Assembly (NCBI GenBank): GCA_027624855.1
Contig: JAQBTQ010000002.1
Coordinates: forward strand, 1-64,000
Source of the DNA: Bacteroidota bacterium
Lineage (GTDB): Bacteria > Bacteroidota > Bacteroidia > Flavobacteriales_D > Sanyastnellaceae
Length of the DNA: 64,000 bases
Reading direction: 5' to 3'
Each line of letters opens with the position of its first letter. Within the stretch, counting starts at the first letter, position 1. Shown piece by piece: positions 54,337-61,046 of this stretch. The position numbers and the translations under genes are program-made. The notes beneath the pieces were generated by a model that was given only the letters and a program-made list of their open reading frames with translations, did no database searches and was not told where the DNA came from.

Positions 54337-55539
54337 ATGTACGGTTCTATCCAATCACATCTCGAAGAGGAATTGAAGCAAATTGAAGCTTCAGGATTGT
54401 TCAAAAAAGAACGAATCATTGCGGGAGCGCAGGATGTTGAAATCACATTGGCCAATGGGCAAAAGGTGCTAAATTTTTGTGCCAATAATTACCTGGGACT
54501 GAGCAGCGATCCACGCGTGTGCAAGGCAGCCAAAGATGCCATTGAATCGCATGGCTTTGGAATGTCAAGCGTGCGATTCATCTGCGGGACTCAGGACATT
54601 CACAAGGAGCTTGAAGCGACCATTGCGCAATTTCACCACACGGAAGACACCATTCTTTATGCTGCTGCTTTTGATGCCAACGGTGGCGTATTTGAGCCGC
54701 TGTTGGGCCCTGAAGACGCCATCATTTCGGACTCGTTGAATCACGCCAGTATCATCGATGGGGTGAGGCTATGTAAAGCGGCCAGGTACCGCTATTCCAA
54801 TAACGATATGGCGGACCTTGAAGCTCAGCTTCAAAAGGCTCAATCGGCCAATCATCGATTTAAAATCATCGTTACGGATGGGGTTTTTTCCATGGATGGT
54901 TATGTGGCTCAAATCGACAAGATTTGTGATTTGGCTGAAGCCTATGACGCCATGGTCATGGTGGACGAATGCCACGCAACGGGGTTCATTGGCCCAACCG
55001 GCAAAGGCAGCATCGAACTTCGCGGTGCGCTCGGAAGGGTGGATATCATCACAGGAACCCTTGGTAAGGCAATGGGCGGAGCCATGGGAGGCTTCACCAC
55101 AGGTCGCAAAGAAATCATCGAGATGTTGCGTCAGCGGTCTCGGCCGTATTTGTTTTCAAATAGTCTCGCACCGAGCATCGTTGGAGCATCATTGGAGGTG
55201 TTTAAAATGCTGAATGAATCCACTGAATTGAGGGATCGATTGGAGGAGAACACGAAATACTTCAAGGCGGGAATGCGTAAGGTGGGCTTGCCGTTTAAGG
55301 ACGGGGAGTCTGCCATTGTGCCCGTGATGCTTGGAGACGCAAAACTTTCTCAAGTCATGGCGGATCGTTTGTTGGAAGAGGGCATTTATGTCATTGGATT
55401 TTTCTATCCAGTTGTTCCTCAAAATGAAGCACGAATCCGCGTTCAACTTTCCGCTGCACATACCAAAGTTCAGCTTGATCGCGCCATCGCAGCATTTGAA
55501 AAAGTAGGAAAAGAGCTAGGAATTTTGGAAATGGCGTAA
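54337..55539 (+). CDS. kbl: Glycine C-acetyltransferase (2-amino-3-ketobutyrate CoA ligase)
   Basis: Pyridoxal-phosphate enzyme that cleaves 2-amino-3-ketobutyrate with CoA to glycine and acetyl-CoA in threonine breakdown. The 400-residue protein matches KBL along its length, with NFCANNYLGL, SHGFGMSSVRFICGTQ, DALNHASI-type NHASIIDGVRLCKA, VDECHATGF, and the lysine in GTLGKAMGGAMGG. Serine palmitoyltransferase is a related alternative in Bacteroidota but lacks this degree of match. No threonine dehydrogenase gene is present nearby. The FAD oxidoreductase follows after 3 bases. Confidence 0.95.
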   Translation: MYGSIQSHLEEELKQIEASGLFKKERIIAGAQDVEITLANGQKVLNFCANNYLGLSSDPRVCKAAKDAIESHGFGMSSVRFICGTQDIHKELEATIAQFHHTEDTILYAAAFDANGGVFEPLLGPEDAIISDSLNHASIIDGVRLCKAARYRYSNNDMADLEAQLQKAQSANHRFKIIVTDGVFSMDGYVAQIDKICDLAEAYDAMVMVDECHATGFIGPTGKGSIELRGALGRVDIITGTLGKAMGGAMGGFTTGRKEIIEMLRQRSRPYLFSNSLAPSIVGASLEVFKMLNESTELRDRLEENTKYFKAGMRKVGLPFKDGESAIVPVMLGDAKLSQVMADRLLEEGIYVIGFFYPVVPQNEARIRVQLSAAHTKVQLDRAIAAFEKVGKELGILEMA

Positions 55540-55542
55540 ACG

Positions 55543-56592
55543 ATGCCTTCAAAAGGTCTCAGTTTAATTGTTGGGGGTGGATTGGCGGGAAACCTGATGG
55601 CTTGGGAATTGCATTCGCGAGGTCACGCGTTTGAAATGTGGAGTGATGGTACCCCAGCTGCATCCAGTGTGGCCGCTGGGATGTTTAATCCTGTGTCATT
55701 CCGGCGAATTTTGCCACAATGGAACGCACGCTTATTTCAAGCCGAGGCGCGCAATGTCTTTCAGCGCATTGAAAAGGAGTTGAATTGCTCGCTTTGGCAT
55801 GATGTGCCGATTCTCAGGGTTTTCCCGGATCAAGCCTATGCAAAATTGTGGAACGAAAGGGCGGAGCCAGGCGCACATGAAGTCAGCGAGTTCATCGAAT
55901 GCGTTGCGGCTTGCGATGTGCCGAAAGGCATCAAAGCACCGCATGGAATGGGGCGGGTACCGGAGGCAGGCTGGGTCGATGTTGAAGCATTTGTTCAAAA
56001 GAGCATTGATGCTTGGAACCAAATGGGCCTTTGGAGAGATCAGTCCTGGAGCCTGCAGGATGGATGTCCGATTGGATTTGAGAATGTAATCGATTGTCGA
56101 GGTGTTGGAGCAACAGAAGATTTGGCCCAGTTTGGATTGGAATTAAGAAAGAATCATGGGGAAGTGATTCGCGTCGCCCCTGACTGCGATTGGGGAAATG
56201 AAACGGTCAACAACGTTACTTGGGCCCTGCCGCTTTCGGATGGATCGTACCGTGTGGGTTCGACTTATCGATGGGATGTTCACGAGCCGATGTGCTTGTC
56301 CGAAACCCCTTCAATGCTCATTGAAGGGGTTTCGCAAGTGCGAGAAAGAGCCGGAAACGTAGAATTGCTCGAACATAAGGCGGGCCTGCGGCCATCTTGC
56401 TTTGATCGCCGCCCCATCCTTGGGATCGTATCAGATCGGTATCCGTTTTACCATGTCTGCAACGGTTGGGGAACCCGAGGTGTATCCATCGGGCCAGCGA
56501 TGGTGCGATGGGTTGCGGACATGATTTGGGAAGGAAAAACCACACCGGAATCGGTCGCTCCGGAAAGATTCCGTACTTTCACAAAAAATTGA
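55543..56592 (+). CDS. FAD-dependent oxidoreductase (D-amino-acid-oxidase family)
   Basis: A 349-residue DAO-family flavoprotein with the N-terminal FAD motif VGGGLAGNLMAWEL (residues about 10-23) and the C-terminal GWGTRGVSIGPAMVRW that closes over the flavin. Family members oxidise amino acids or related amines, or act in tRNA or lipid modification. Located directly after kbl (3 bases), so a role in amino acid breakdown is plausible but not shown. The substrate is unknown. Confidence 0.85.
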   Translation: MPSKGLSLIVGGGLAGNLMAWELHSRGHAFEMWSDGTPAASSVAAGMFNPVSFRRILPQWNARLFQAEARNVFQRIEKELNCSLWHDVPILRVFPDQAYAKLWNERAEPGAHEVSEFIECVAACDVPKGIKAPHGMGRVPEAGWVDVEAFVQKSIDAWNQMGLWRDQSWSLQDGCPIGFENVIDCRGVGATEDLAQFGLELRKNHGEVIRVAPDCDWGNETVNNVTWALPLSDGSYRVGSTYRWDVHEPMCLSETPSMLIEGVSQVRERAGNVELLEHKAGLRPSCFDRRPILGIVSDRYPFYHVCNGWGTRGVSIGPAMVRWVADMIWEGKTTPESVAPERFRTFTKN

Positions 56593-56596
56593 AAGT

Positions 56597-57157
56597 TTGT
56601 CGAAAAACCAGGAGAGCGTCCAAAATCGAGACTGGCAAATTGAATTCGTTCGGAATTGGGAATCGGTAGGTCGGCATTGGGGAGTACCGAAGGCGATGCT
56701 GACGGTGCATGCCTGGTTAATCATTCAACGAACGCCCCGATCGACTGATGACGTGATGAATGCGCTCGATTTGAGTCGAGGTACGGCACATACCATGCTC
56801 CAGGAATTGACGGATTGGCAATTGGTATATCCTCTTCGTTCCATGGGAAGCCGCCAGGTAAAATTCATTGCAGAGCAGGACCCTTGGACGATGATGATCG
56901 CCATCATGAAGAAACGGAAGGAGCGAGAATTGCTGCCTTTGTTGGAACTGAATCAATGGAATGCTTCGAATAAAGCCAATATGGAGGCAACAGGACACGC
57001 TGATTTGCACCGTTCCATGGAGCGCACCCTTCATTTTGCTGCGCAAATCAACCAAGGGGTGGAATTGGCATTTCAAGAAGACGAAGCTTGGTGGTGGAGG
57101 TGGTTGTTGAATCCGTTGAGAACAAAGCTTAAATCCTTCGATTCGTCCCACCAATAA
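56597..57157 (+). CDS. GbsR/MarR-type transcriptional regulator
   Basis: A 186-residue DNA-binding protein with a winged helix-turn-helix (about 35-95, VMNALDLSRGTAHTMLQEL) and a helical dimer/effector part, matching the Bacteroidota GbsR-like group (N-terminal ESVGRHWGVPKAMLTVHAWL). The ligand is unknown. TTG at 56597 follows the oxidoreductase stop by 4 bases. It precedes ferritin by 23 bases, so iron storage or the upstream catabolic genes are candidate targets. Confidence 0.85.
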   Translation: MSKNQESVQNRDWQIEFVRNWESVGRHWGVPKAMLTVHAWLIIQRTPRSTDDVMNALDLSRGTAHTMLQELTDWQLVYPLRSMGSRQVKFIAEQDPWTMMIAIMKKRKERELLPLLELNQWNASNKANMEATGHADLHRSMERTLHFAAQINQGVELAFQEDEAWWWRWLLNPLRTKLKSFDSSHQ

Positions 57158-57159
57158 CG

Positions 57160-57167
57160 TACCTTCG
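57160..57167 (+). promoter_or_regulatory. Putative -7 element of ferritin promoter
   Basis: TACCTTCG fits TAnnTT(C/T)G; a TTCG at 57137-57140 lies 19 bases upstream (one mismatch to TTTG). It is 13 bases before the ferritin ATG. The identical -7 octamer occurs before the universal stress gene. Confidence 0.45.
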
Positions 57168-57180
57168 AAAAAAATGTCTG

Positions 57181-57678
57181 ATGCTACACGATCAAATTGA
57201 ACAAGCACTGAATCAACAGATTGCCCTCGAAGGAGGTAGCAGTCATGCCTACCTCGCCATGGCTGTTTGGGCCGAGACCAATGGATTCGATGGCGTTGCT
57301 TCTTTCTTGTATGTGCACGCGGAGGAGGAGCGGCAACACATGCTCAAATTGATGAGGTTTGTGAACGAGCGAGGAGGTGTGGCGTGTGTTCCTGCATTGG
57401 AATCAACCCAAGATTCATTCGAAGGCCTGGAACATGTGTTTCAGCTCATTCTTGAACATGAAACTCGGGTCACAGCCAGCATCAACGATGTGGTGGATCA
57501 ATGCCTAAAATTGAAGGATTACACTACGCATAATTTCATGCAGTGGTATGTAGCCGAGCAAATCGAGGAGGAAGCACTTGCGCGCAAATTGCTTGATAAG
57601 TTGGCATTAGCTGGAGGAGACAAGGGAGCGCTCTATTTATTCGACAGGGATATCACCAACTTGGATTCTCACGAATAA
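57181..57678 (+). CDS. ftnA: Ferritin
   Basis: Iron-storage 24-mer subunit with ferroxidase activity. The 165-residue protein keeps the ferroxidase ligands at the same positions as E. coli FtnA: Glu17, Glu50, His53, Glu94, Gln127 and Glu130, plus Tyr24. This numbering fixes the ATG at 57181 as the start. No haem-binding methionine (bacterioferritin) is evident. The YfiR-like gene follows after 4 bases, so they may be co-transcribed. Confidence 0.95.
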   Translation: MLHDQIEQALNQQIALEGGSSHAYLAMAVWAETNGFDGVASFLYVHAEEERQHMLKLMRFVNERGGVACVPALESTQDSFEGLEHVFQLILEHETRVTASINDVVDQCLKLKDYTTHNFMQWYVAEQIEEEALARKLLDKLALAGGDKGALYLFDRDITNLDSHE

Positions 57679-57682
57679 ACCC

Positions 57683-58285
57683 ATGAACGGTCCAGGCCAT
57701 GGCATAGGAATTGTTGTCTCAAAATCCAGCTTGCTGATCGGGATAATGGGTTTGTTGGCTATGGTCGTATTGTTGTGCAACTCGTCGACGATGTCCGCAC
57801 AGTCGCTTTCAAGCGTCGACGAAACCGATACAAGAGCCATCACGAAAGCCAACTTTCTCTTTCATTTTGCTGCATCCAATGAATGGCCGGCGCAAGCGAA
57901 GCAAGGAGACTTTTACATTGGAATAATTGGCAATTCTCGGCTGTATGAAGAATTGGTCGATAAATACGCAATGAAATCCATTGGATCCCAACCTTTAAAA
58001 GTGGTGGCTTTTGAAGACGTAGCATCGTTCGATTCGGACCGTTTCATTCAATTGATTTATTGCGATGCCGGTGGGGAATCATTGCGTCAGCTTGCGACAC
58101 AATTGATTGATCAACCCATTTTGTTGGTGGCTGATTCTGAAGATGCATTGGAGCAAGGGGCTTTCATCAATTTTGTGGTGAAAAACAATCGCATTCGTTA
58201 CGAAATCAATCAAGAAGAAGCAAAGAAGCGAGGCGTCTTAATTGGCAATAAAATCATGTCATGGGCCGTAACACCAACAGAATGA
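57683..58285 (+). CDS. YfiR-like (DUF4154) periplasmic protein
   Basis: A 200-residue protein with an N-terminal membrane/signal segment (about 15-40, with an MSAQ end) and a DUF4154 domain (about 50-195) with conserved KANFLFHFAASNEWP, NRIRYEINQEEAKKRGV and the C-terminal LIGNKIMSWA. YfiR in Pseudomonas is a periplasmic redox-sensitive inhibitor of the diguanylate cyclase YfiN. Here the cluster contains no cyclase; the adjacent membrane protein is a PP2C-type phosphatase with a periplasmic sensor domain, which could be its partner. Overlaps the next gene (ATGA). Confidence 0.82.
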   Translation: MNGPGHGIGIVVSKSSLLIGIMGLLAMVVLLCNSSTMSAQSLSSVDETDTRAITKANFLFHFAASNEWPAQAKQGDFYIGIIGNSRLYEELVDKYAMKSIGSQPLKVVAFEDVASFDSDRFIQLIYCDAGGESLRQLATQLIDQPILLVADSEDALEQGAFINFVVKNNRIRYEINQEEAKKRGVLIGNKIMSWAVTPTE

Positions 58286-59202
58286 ATTTTTACAGTTCCA
58301 TACGACGGGTCTCCCTCATGGCCATCATTGTCTGGCTGGCCTCAGCTTGTTTTGGTCAAATTCCAGTCGAGGAGGCCACGCGACTTGCGCAATCTGGCCG
58401 ATGGAGCGAAGCGCATGATTTGTTACAACCAGCGGTGCAGCAAAATCGGGATTTGGCCAACGGACATGCTTGGTACGTCTTGGGTTTTATTCAGAAAGAA
58501 TTGCACAAAAACGCTGGTGAATCAGGAGTTGACGCCCCTTTTCGTGCGCAGTCCGTGGAAAGCTTTCAATTGGCTTTAGCCCACCAAAGTTTGGCTCAAA
58601 CGGAGCGTGAAAATTCCATGGAGGCATTGGATTTTCTATCGCGAAGCTATTTCAGAGAAGCCATCGAAATGGTAGAAGGATTCACGTATGGCGCAGAAAA
58701 AACCATTTTTGATTTGATGGTCCGTTATGAGGACATTCAGCGTTATTTAAATCCGGAATTTGACAAAACCGAGCAGCGCTCTGACCTGCATCGATACCTG
58801 GCACAGGCTTATTCGAATTTGCTCGAAACTGAACGCTTTGCGGAGACGGAGACGGAAGATGAAATCCTTGACAAAGCGATCCTGCATTTTGAATCGTCAT
58901 TGACAATGGATGCCGGGAATTATGCAACGCGTTACAATTATGCCATCACCCTGTACAATCATGGCGTGCGACAATTGAAACGGATCAATCACAACACCTC
59001 AATGTTTCAGTTGATGGAAATCCAAGATGCATGCGTTGCATTATTCGAACAATCATTGCCTCCAATGGAGCAGGCGCATGCTCAGCGGCCGGACCGGCTT
59101 GAAACTTTGAAAGGACTGATGACCATCCATTATGCGTTGTCTCAGAAAGATGAGTCGGATGCCTATCGGCGTCAAATGGAGCAGTTGTTACAGAAACGCT
59201 AA
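58282..59202 (+). CDS. TPR-repeat exported protein
   Basis: A 306-residue protein with a signal peptide (about 1-27; cleavage near CFGQ, or a weak lipobox at ASAC) and several helical hairpin repeats of tetratricopeptide type (about 30-300; for example AWYVLGFIQKELHK and YATRYNYAITLYNHGVRQL). Such repeats bind other proteins. ATG at 58282 overlaps the yfiR-like stop, so translation is coupled. The next gene, a membrane phosphatase, starts 41 bases later. Likely a scaffold between the two, but that is inference. Confidence 0.8.
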   Translation: MNFYSSIRRVSLMAIIVWLASACFGQIPVEEATRLAQSGRWSEAHDLLQPAVQQNRDLANGHAWYVLGFIQKELHKNAGESGVDAPFRAQSVESFQLALAHQSLAQTERENSMEALDFLSRSYFREAIEMVEGFTYGAEKTIFDLMVRYEDIQRYLNPEFDKTEQRSDLHRYLAQAYSNLLETERFAETETEDEILDKAILHFESSLTMDAGNYATRYNYAITLYNHGVRQLKRINHNTSMFQLMEIQDACVALFEQSLPPMEQAHAQRPDRLETLKGLMTIHYALSQKDESDAYRRQMEQLLQKR

Positions 59203-59231
59203 TGCATTCTCCAATCCTCGAGATCAGACCT

Positions 59232-59239
59232 TAAATTCG
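59232..59239 (+). promoter_or_regulatory. Putative -7 element of phosphatase gene
   Basis: TAAATTCG fits TAnnTT(C/T)G and ends 4 bases before the ATG at 59244. No clear -33 TTG. It would let the phosphatase be transcribed separately from the YfiR-like and TPR genes. Confidence 0.4.
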
Positions 59240-59243
59240 GGGC

Positions 59244-61046
59244 ATGGTTCACAAGTCGGGTCCGAAAAAATTCCAATGGAGCATCGGGTGGCGCATTTCT
59301 GTGGGCTTTGGGATATTTGGACTGGCAGTTGGAGCGCTCTTTTTAGTGACGAGTACGACTCTGGCAGAGAGCCAACGGTTGGGCAAAAGGATTGACAGCG
59401 TGCTCACACCGAGTATTCAGCAATTGGATGAGCTGGATCGCTCGATCGCTGAAACGCGCATCTTAATCAGGCATTGGCTGTCGGTGCAGTCAGGACCTTC
59501 CAACCCTGAAAAACTTCAATTGAGGCGATTGGTTGAAGAAGAGATTCCAGATCAAATCGAATCCTTTCGACCACTGGTTCTTCAATGGAACGACGTCGAA
59601 TTGCAAAATCAGTTTGATTCACTTGCCACAGATGTGGAGCATTTGTTTTTGGCTTATCGTGAAATCATGCGATTGTTGCCGACGTTTCAATCATACGAGG
59701 ATCCATTGGCAATGATGGATGCAGAGTATTATGCGCTGGACGGTTCGACCATTCCATTATACACGGTTTCAATTCGAGATCGAATGGATCGTTTGGCCAC
59801 GGCGCAGACAGATGCCCTTTCAGCCTCGACTTCCCGCATGGATTCCTTGAGTAATCAACTCAAATTGTATGCTGGAAATGTGGCGTTAGCGATTTTGGTT
59901 CTGGGATTTATAATCGCATGGAGTGTTACCCGTTCCATTGTGAACCCCATCCGCGAATTAAAGCGAGCCTTGCTTTATTTGGGCCGGGGAGTGCCTTTGG
60001 ACCGAGAGGTAAAAGCCCGACACGATGAAATTGGGGAAATGGCCATAGCAGTCAATCGATTGGCTGATGGCTTGAGACGAACAAGGGATTTTAGTTTACA
60101 AGTTGGTCAAGGGGATTTTGAGGCAGAATACAATCCCCTCAGTGAAGATGATGCGCTGGGACAAGCCATCTTAAAAATGCGGGATGACTTGGCAAACAAT
60201 GAGCGGGAATTGGAGGAGAAGGTTCGGATGAGAACCGCGGAGGTCGAAGAACAAAAGACGGTTGTGGAGTCGTTGTATGCGGATTTAAAGGACAGCATTG
60301 ATTACGCTAAGCGCATTCAACAAGCGATTCTGCCATCGCGAACGGATCGCGACAAGGTCTTTGATGAGACGGCTGTTTTTTACCAACCAAGGGATGGGGT
60401 ATCCGGTGATTTTTTCTGGTTTCATTCAGTTGGACGGGTGCGCATGTTTTCTGCCATTGATTGCACGGGTCATGGTGTTCCAGGAGCATTTATGAGCTTG
60501 ATTGGTCACCATGCGTTAGAGCGCATCACGAAGGTGTATACGCAACCTGATCGGGTATTGGAGCAACTTAATCGCGCTGCTTGTGCATTGCTCCGACCAC
60601 AGGGTTTTCGAAGCAAAGACATGGGTGAAGGGGTGGTGAATGACGGCATGGATCTGGCGCTCGTAAGCGTTGACCTGGAACGCATGGAATTGGAATACAG
60701 TGGAGCGAATTGTCCGCTCTATTTGGTCCGCAAAGGAATGCTTCAAGAATTGAAACCAGACAAAATGGCCATTGCTTCATTCGAGCCTGGCACGAAACAA
60801 TTTCAGATGCATACCCTTCCCTTGATCGAGGGTGATGTGATTTTTGCGGCGACCGATGGCTTTCCAGATCAATTTGGAGGACCGCAGGGCAAAAAGTTCA
60901 TGCGCAAAAGATTCCGCGAACTCTTGGTGCATGTTTCAACCCTTCCAGCGGAAGAAATGGAGCAGGAATTGGCTCGCACCTTCCAAGATTGGAAGGGCGA
61001 TGAAGATCAAGTTGACGACGTCTTGGTCGTGGGAGTACGAATTTGA
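59244..61046 (+). CDS. Membrane HAMP-PP2C (SpoIIE-type) phosphatase
   Basis: A 600-residue sensor phosphatase: transmembrane helix (about 18-38), a helical periplasmic domain (about 40-210), a second helix (about 212-230), HAMP (about 231-285), a coiled-coil linker (about 310-348), and a PP2C/SpoIIE domain (350-600). The metal-binding aspartates are visible in GVSGDFFWF, DCTGHGVPGAF, ATDGFPDQF and the final QVDDVLVVGVR. SpoIIE-type phosphatases act on phosphorylated anti-anti-sigma or other proteins; no sigma-factor gene is nearby, so the substrate is unknown. Its stop is 3 bases from that of usp on the other strand. Confidence 0.9.
   Translation: MVHKSGPKKFQWSIGWRISVGFGIFGLAVGALFLVTSTTLAESQRLGKRIDSVLTPSIQQLDELDRSIAETRILIRHWLSVQSGPSNPEKLQLRRLVEEEIPDQIESFRPLVLQWNDVELQNQFDSLATDVEHLFLAYREIMRLLPTFQSYEDPLAMMDAEYYALDGSTIPLYTVSIRDRMDRLATAQTDALSASTSRMDSLSNQLKLYAGNVALAILVLGFIIAWSVTRSIVNPIRELKRALLYLGRGVPLDREVKARHDEIGEMAIAVNRLADGLRRTRDFSLQVGQGDFEAEYNPLSEDDALGQAILKMRDDLANNERELEEKVRMRTAEVEEQKTVVESLYADLKDSIDYAKRIQQAILPSRTDRDKVFDETAVFYQPRDGVSGDFFWFHSVGRVRMFSAIDCTGHGVPGAFMSLIGHHALERITKVYTQPDRVLEQLNRAACALLRPQGFRSKDMGEGVVNDGMDLALVSVDLERMELEYSGANCPLYLVRKGMLQELKPDKMAIASFEPGTKQFQMHTLPLIEGDVIFAATDGFPDQFGGPQGKKFMRKRFRELLVHVSTLPAEEMEQELARTFQDWKGDEDQVDDVLVVGVRI

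Follow-up and report, generated by a model that had tools for sequence, protein, structure and literature searches.

YfiR and SiaA are parts of two separate Pseudomonas pathways of cyclic di-GMP signalling. In the window, the 64,000-nucleotide stretch of contig JAQBTQ010000002.1 analysed here, which comes from a member of the Sanyastnellaceae in the order Flavobacteriales_D, three adjacent genes appear to bring relatives of both together. They encode Y, a YfiR/HmsC-like protein with a DUF4154 domain; T, a TPR protein; and S, a membrane phosphatase with HAMP and PP2C domains. We propose, with a probability of about 60%, that these genes (Y-T-S) form the transmembrane input unit of a Sia-type partner switch, the type of switch by which Pseudomonas biofilms are controlled. 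As described in excerpts of two papers on P. aeruginosa, SiaC is phosphorylated at Thr68 by SiaB, SiaA takes this phosphate off again, and the diguanylate cyclase SiaD is activated by the unphosphorylated form of SiaC (PMC7278518, PMC7647112).

Like SiaABCD, this genome combines a HAMP-PP2C phosphatase that is nearest to SiaA with SiaB-like and SiaC-like proteins in which Thr68 is conserved. It differs in having no match to the GGDEF domain (SiaD-type), in the DUF4154 and TPR genes beside the phosphatase, in the location of the SiaB-SiaC pair on another contig, and in scores that remain below the NCBIfam cut-offs. YfiBNR of P. aeruginosa shares with our locus a DUF4154 protein adjoining a protein with a transmembrane helix, periplasmic part, transmembrane helix and HAMP domain, but here the output is a phosphatase, the sensor is predicted to be a four-helix domain instead of CHASE8, a TPR gene is added, and Y lacks conserved cysteine pairs. 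Within the same order, DUF4154 is also the apparent input of membrane signalling proteins where it accompanies CHASE8-HAMP kinases or is fused to kinases; unlike Y-T-S, these settings have a kinase output, no T gene, and a TonB-dependent receptor upstream (three tested). In our reading, Y-T-S would operate as a Sia switch that receives its input from a YfiR-type protein, joining two known kinds of system and being neither YfiBNR nor SiaABCD. Among the titles and abstract openings listed as matches in the open-access literature, the scope of our search as opposed to subscription papers, we found no DUF4154-TPR-phosphatase unit and no link between YfiR and SiaA. The features of the locus are as follows.

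57683..58285, + strand: Y, YfiR/HmsC-like (DUF4154) protein, 200 amino acids (PF13689, 6e-27; hydropathy)
58282..59202, + strand: T, probably exported TPR protein, 306 amino acids, ATG at 58282, alternative ATG at 58261 (TPR_19, 4e-7)
59244..61046, + strand: S, HAMP-PP2C (SpoIIE-type) membrane phosphatase, SiaA-like, 600 amino acids (PF00672, PF07228; PDB 6k4e)
59352..59867, + strand: predicted periplasmic four-helix domain of S, residues ~37-208 (model helices; hydropathy; 4HB_MCP_1 in 2/36 relatives)
59925..60077, + strand: HAMP domain of S, residues 228-278 (PF00672)
60078..60290, + strand: helical linker of S joining HAMP to the phosphatase; of six regions compared, it is the most conserved
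60291..61043, + strand: PP2C domain of S, with Asp389, 406, 538, 591 and 592 invariant (alignment; PDB and fold matches)
57181..57678, + strand: ferritin gene, a conserved neighbour that ends 4 bases before Y (PF00210, 2e-37)

All three genes stand where a preliminary description of this DNA had placed them, and the 4-base overlap of Y and T (58282-58285) and the 41-base gap between T and S that it reported are both present; the alternative in-frame start of T would lengthen the overlap to 25 bases. Because the whole stretch from 54337 through 61046 is densely packed, with gaps of 3 to 41 bases, the closeness of Y, T and S in their own genome alone is weak evidence; conservation across relatives is stronger. 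The preliminary description does not mention the ferritin gene just before Y. A scan for promoters and terminators gave counts within about one standard deviation of those in shuffled sequences.

A DUF4154 match occurs in 174 of 299 genomes of the order, and loci were read in 92 of these 174. Y, T and S have the same order and orientation in 78 of the 92, spread over eight families (f1, f2, f3, f4, f5, f8, f9 and f10), although in G182 and G257, both counted here, a contig end truncates the S gene. The survey of adjacency suggested in the preliminary description thus finds the arrangement widely conserved. Loci were chosen in several sets for kinship and spread, one deliberately with long frames (fusions) and one mostly with a cyclase near DUF4154, and the profiles of Y, T, S and the cyclase behind these counts derive from the counted loci themselves. 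L150 and L230 apparently lie on one contig, as do L142 and the contig of G178; L055, a wrong place, was left out. Among the remaining 14 genomes, two end at a contig edge after T (G065, G172), two had only another copy read (G011 and G066, the G066 copy being a kinase fusion), three have a CHASE8-HAMP kinase replacing T and S (G006, G019, G103), one has a DUF4154-SpoIIE fusion (G124), and six were read as DUF4154-kinase fusions (G167, G234, G236, G250, G278, G280). Kinase fusions were assigned with Pfam in L091 and L128 and otherwise from length and the DUF4154 match. A scan of 80 loci in named genomes, which overlap partly with the 92 genomes, gave 13 with an S relative that matches from its N-terminus. 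Ten of the 13 have Y-T-S, two are cut by a contig start (L143, with T-S, and L149, with S), and in L152 a full-length S relative stands by itself, with neither Y nor a convincing T in the vicinity. Crocinitomicaceae bacterium MED692 is a close named relative, with 77% identity in S.

DUF4154 and a SpoIIE domain also occur within single proteins. L122 (566 amino acids) and L127 (599 amino acids) each join DUF4154, a strongly hydrophobic helix and SpoIIE; neither has a HAMP match or a T gene beside it, and we do not claim that the two fusions arose independently. Conserved adjacency and these fusions together make it well founded that a periplasmic DUF4154 domain can feed a PP2C-type phosphatase, as the preliminary description supposed, and on these genomic grounds a functional link between Y and S is likely. 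Kinases are the other partners observed: the gene beside DUF4154 in L078 and L088 encodes a kinase, all three DUF4154-adjacent HAMP kinases tested carry a CHASE8 sensor, and DUF4154 is also fused to kinases. In L078, L074 and L091, where DUF4154 adjoins a CHASE8 kinase or is kinase-fused, the gene upstream encodes a TonB-dependent receptor in 3/3 cases tested. DUF4154 in general may be a periplasmic input module that can be swapped among cyclases, kinases and phosphatases. The L122 locus also shows three SpoIIE genes in a row (L122:260-6155), the last of which is the one fused to DUF4154.

S matches HAMP (7e-7) and SpoIIE (PF07228, 3e-21, 76.5 bits). Its metal aspartates, described earlier as all visible, are presumably Asp389, 406, 538, 591 and 592, which are identical in 36/36 aligned S proteins. 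Hydropathy places hydrophobic stretches at residues ~14-36 and ~210-228, flanking the periplasmic part. The structural model (predicted local distance difference test, pLDDT, 84; predicted template-modelling score, pTM, 0.47) has long helices at 14-80, 88-113, 118-144 and 169-247. These surround the predicted membrane helices, and S is therefore predicted to begin with a periplasmic four-helix bundle, after which come HAMP, a linker of helices and PP2C. Across the 36 S proteins, the mean share of the commonest residue is 0.68 in the linker, 0.62 in PP2C and 0.41 in the periplasmic domain. The preliminary description gave S the same plan as YfiN. The outline of transmembrane helix, periplasmic domain, transmembrane helix and HAMP does agree, but the agreement does not extend to the sensor, which is a predicted four-helix bundle and matches CHASE8 in 0/36 S proteins, versus the 3/3 kinases above. 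In L056 and L138, S is shortened to 491 amino acids.

By sequence and by fold, S is closest to SiaA. When S was compared with all PDB chains, the sole match at E<=1 was the PP2C domain of SiaA from P. aeruginosa (6k4e, 131 bits). The same structure is the best Foldseek match (1e-17, template-modelling score 0.89 by target length), and the best other protein reaches 5.5e-11. Against the NCBIfam SiaA model NF038263, S scores 221.5 bits, with its best stretch at residues 277-600 (linker and PP2C), whereas the other SpoIIE protein of the genome scores 43.4. Where SiaB or SiaC is encoded in the same stretch as a SpoIIE protein (five cases: L108, L167, L172, L187 and L213), that protein scores 177-223 against this model, and the fused protein of L122 scores 200.

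Y is the sole DUF4154 match in its genome (the assembly is 96.6% complete), with 94.9 bits against a gathering score of 24.9 for PF13689. It has a hydrophobic stretch near its N-terminus (residues ~15-33, by hydropathy) and stays below two NCBIfam cut-offs, scoring 17 bits versus 85 for the regulatory sequestration protein YfiR and 88.7 versus 125 for YfiR-like TOL_0243. In PDB, no chain matched Y by sequence at E<=1. An excerpt of PMC4655355 describes two conserved cysteine pairs in YfiR. Y has no conserved pairs: its only cysteines are Cys32 and Cys127, and no column contains cysteine in >=30% of 35 aligned Y proteins. Taking Y for a true YfiR and S for a YfiN look-alike is rejected on the model scores, the cysteines and the absence of CHASE8.

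T matches TPR_19, and its model is all-helical with a pLDDT of 94.7. Its N-terminus is hydrophobic by hydropathy, and Gln26, near a signal-peptidase-like site, is invariant in 35/35 T proteins. In 28/35 of these, though not in the T of the window, a simple pattern finds a signal-peptidase-I-like site ahead of the Gln. From these features T is probably exported and located in the periplasm with Y. A lipoprotein assignment was discarded: T of the window has a weak lipobox-like cysteine, yet 31/34 relatives have none, as judged by patterns and not by a dedicated predictor. Fold searches returned generic TPR and similar helical-repeat proteins, with template-modelling scores of at most 0.36 by query length among the 50 listed. 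In 395 genomes drawn from the phylum, T scores above 100 bits in G000 and G009 only; matches occur in 285 of the 395 in all, and those outside G000 and G009 are weaker and largely incomplete, in the manner of generic TPR proteins. This draw shows just three genomes of the order, and says little on the edge of T's range. In the loci read, T accompanies only the four-helix phosphatase type, and was not found in three DUF4154-CHASE8 kinase loci or beside the DUF4154-SpoIIE fusions. This distribution suggests that T adapts Y to S, and the scaffold role assigned to it in the preliminary description fits both the distribution and its apparent export. In L058 and L069, S is preceded by a tandem pair of T-like genes.

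The preliminary description left the substrate of S open. It can be narrowed to a SiaC-type protein as the proposed substrate, given that the genome has a single SiaC with Thr68 and that S matches SiaA. This sole SiaC-family match (PF09345, 128.8 bits) lies on contig C20, where its gene shares 4 bases with the end of the gene for a SiaB-like DUF6272 protein (PF19788, 69.8 bits). Thr68 of the protein aligns with the phosphorylated Thr68 of P. aeruginosa SiaC. Glu70 of the SiaB-like protein aligns with chain residue 62 of 6kko_A, which we equate with the catalytic Glu61 described in an excerpt of PMC7647112 by assuming one extra chain residue. A second DUF6272 protein is encoded on contig C16 (L124:6602-7168) with no SiaC match beside it. 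A large ABC-transporter-like gene stands beside SiaB-SiaC (L100:8518-11415), an assignment made by eye for L100 and L154 only; genes of similar size and place (about 955-1050 amino acids, mostly convergent) occur in L101-L107, L109, L154 and L213.

Co-occurrence points in the same direction as homology. Among 100 genomes of the order, SiaB and SiaC are both present in 76/78 with at least two SpoIIE matches and in 1/22 with one or none, where SpoIIE, SiaB and SiaC tallies are of matches and not proteins, so that tandem domains count twice. In families f9 and f13, where both states occur, the corresponding counts are 9/9 and 1/20. Both proteins are also found in 62/65 genomes with DUF4154, and SpoIIE, SiaB and SiaC all lack a match in G006, where the neighbour of DUF4154 is a CHASE8 kinase. 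Each of four genomes of the window's genus has two SpoIIE matches, one SiaC match and two DUF6272 matches; with two SpoIIE and one SiaC per genome, S would therefore be the natural SiaC phosphatase in this genus. Elsewhere, a SpoIIE gene of the SiaA-like type has SiaB or SiaC as a near neighbour in L167, L213, L172 (convergent) and L187 (one open reading frame between). SiaB or SiaC is in the stretch at 7/80 loci with S relatives in named genomes, a count for which no chance rate was computed, and in a separate set of 78 loci one of the two is nearby at a single locus, the kinase locus L088.

We suggest the following mechanism. Y and T, both probably periplasmic and therefore placed to touch the periplasmic domain of S, would be exported and act on its four-helix bundle, and by analogy with YfiR, Y probably inhibits S. 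HAMP and the linker helices would pass the change on to the PP2C domain, and S would then remove the phosphate from Thr68 of the single SiaC-like protein. The opposing kinase would be the SiaB-like protein encoded next to SiaC on the other contig, and free SiaC would bind and switch an effector. If so, the locus provides a concrete candidate substrate for an uncharacterised phosphatase.

Several observations weigh against this proposal. The proteins of the switch fall short of the NCBIfam equivalogs: S of the SiaA cut-off of 700, SiaC of its cut-off with 79.2 of 150, and SiaB with 69.5 of 85. The highest score against the SiaA model (256) belongs to L155, in whose stretch no SiaB or SiaC was seen. 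Y-T-S is itself seldom near SiaB or SiaC, the cases among Y-T-S loci read being L154 and the L150/L230 locus (SiaB only), and L152 has S without Y or a convincing T. SiaB and SiaC are also present together in 15/35 genomes without DUF4154. Exceptions to the co-occurrence are G073, with SiaB and SiaC and one SpoIIE match, and G080 and G032 (71% complete), with at least two SpoIIE matches and no SiaC. Many relatives have from 5 to at least 29 SpoIIE matches, so that only genomes with a small number of them show a clear pairing, and because the genomes are related the profile counts are not independent.

The main rival is that S resembles SiaA and perceives its own signal through the periplasmic four-helix domain, while Y and T are co-expressed with it for a separate job, such as ferritin-linked iron or redox stress, and exert no control. 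An excerpt of PMC12834913 reports that SiaA of P. aeruginosa responds to membrane perturbation and names no YfiR partner; S may therefore sense without Y, and both the absence of CHASE8 in S and the S gene of L152 agree with this. In 63/78 Y-T-S genomes a ferritin gene precedes Y on the same strand, within 150 bases in 42, and this conserved neighbour makes a link to iron or redox possible. We nevertheless consider independence of S from Y and T unlikely, since DUF4154-SpoIIE fusions exist and since Y-T-S is kept in eight families, whereas ferritin is absent from the stretch read in 15/78 genomes and more than 150 bases off in 21 more. The fusions also speak against the idea that compact genomes have merely kept this neighbourhood by vertical descent, with no functional link. 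Such an origin would fit the small gaps across 54337-61046 and the flanking KBL, DAO and HTH genes, which are often kept inside family f1; those genes were not seen outside f1 in the loci compared, whereas Y-T-S was, and we regard descent alone as highly improbable.

A different doubt concerns the target. Instead of SiaC, S could have as its target a STAS anti-sigma antagonist of the classical kind, or some other protein: the genome has one STAS match, in a frame of 171 amino acids, and in fold searches the phosphatase domain of S also resembles SpoIIE, RsbU-type and RssB domains. The SiaA-model score of S, set against that of the other SpoIIE protein, and the way in which extra SpoIIE proteins go together with SiaB and SiaC across genomes make such a target quite improbable. 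Our preferred reading retains Y-T-S as the input unit and SiaC as the candidate substrate.

What the switch would act on may vary within the order. GGDEF is rare there, with a match in 2/100 genomes and one above the cut-off, so a YfiR-like and a SiaA-like protein are joined in one conserved cluster where the common output of their Pseudomonas counterparts is scarce. For the genome of the window, a SiaD-like output was rejected, no GGDEF match being found; a class III cyclase output was likewise dismissed for its genus, with PF00211 in 0/4 genomes searched. Because neither kind was found, it is probable that the effector in this genus is something other than a diguanylate cyclase or a class III cyclase. 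An excerpt of PMC8457831 proposes that modulating what neighbouring proteins do is a common role of DUF1987 (SiaC) proteins, and in relatives a SiaC-controlled class III cyclase may be a fair reading. Conceivable, if doubtful, is that the Sia switch has been rewired across the order: Y and T would gate the phosphatase from the periplasm, dephosphorylated SiaC would switch a class III cyclase, often the propeller-cyclase directly behind S, and a cyclic AMP- or cyclic GMP-type signal would replace cyclic di-GMP, the genus of the window having since shed the cyclase while still using the switch on a different target. Y-T-S offers a candidate answer to the role of SiaC proteins where cyclic di-GMP is absent.

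Class III cyclases occur in 82/100 genomes of the order, some of them without DUF4154. A class III cyclase gene is downstream of S on the same strand in 17/78 Y-T-S genomes (12 of f3, 4 of f9 and 1 of f10), a count inflated because loci were chosen for a cyclase near DUF4154; the distance is at most 30 bases in 14. Before that selection, a cyclase was behind S in 7/62 Y-T-S loci (G022, G050 and G054 of f3; G033, G100, G118 and G185 of f9). Pfam resolves two of the cyclases behind S, one with a propeller-Y_Y_Y-cyclase arrangement and a shorter one with a C-terminal HD domain (L222:6231-7778).

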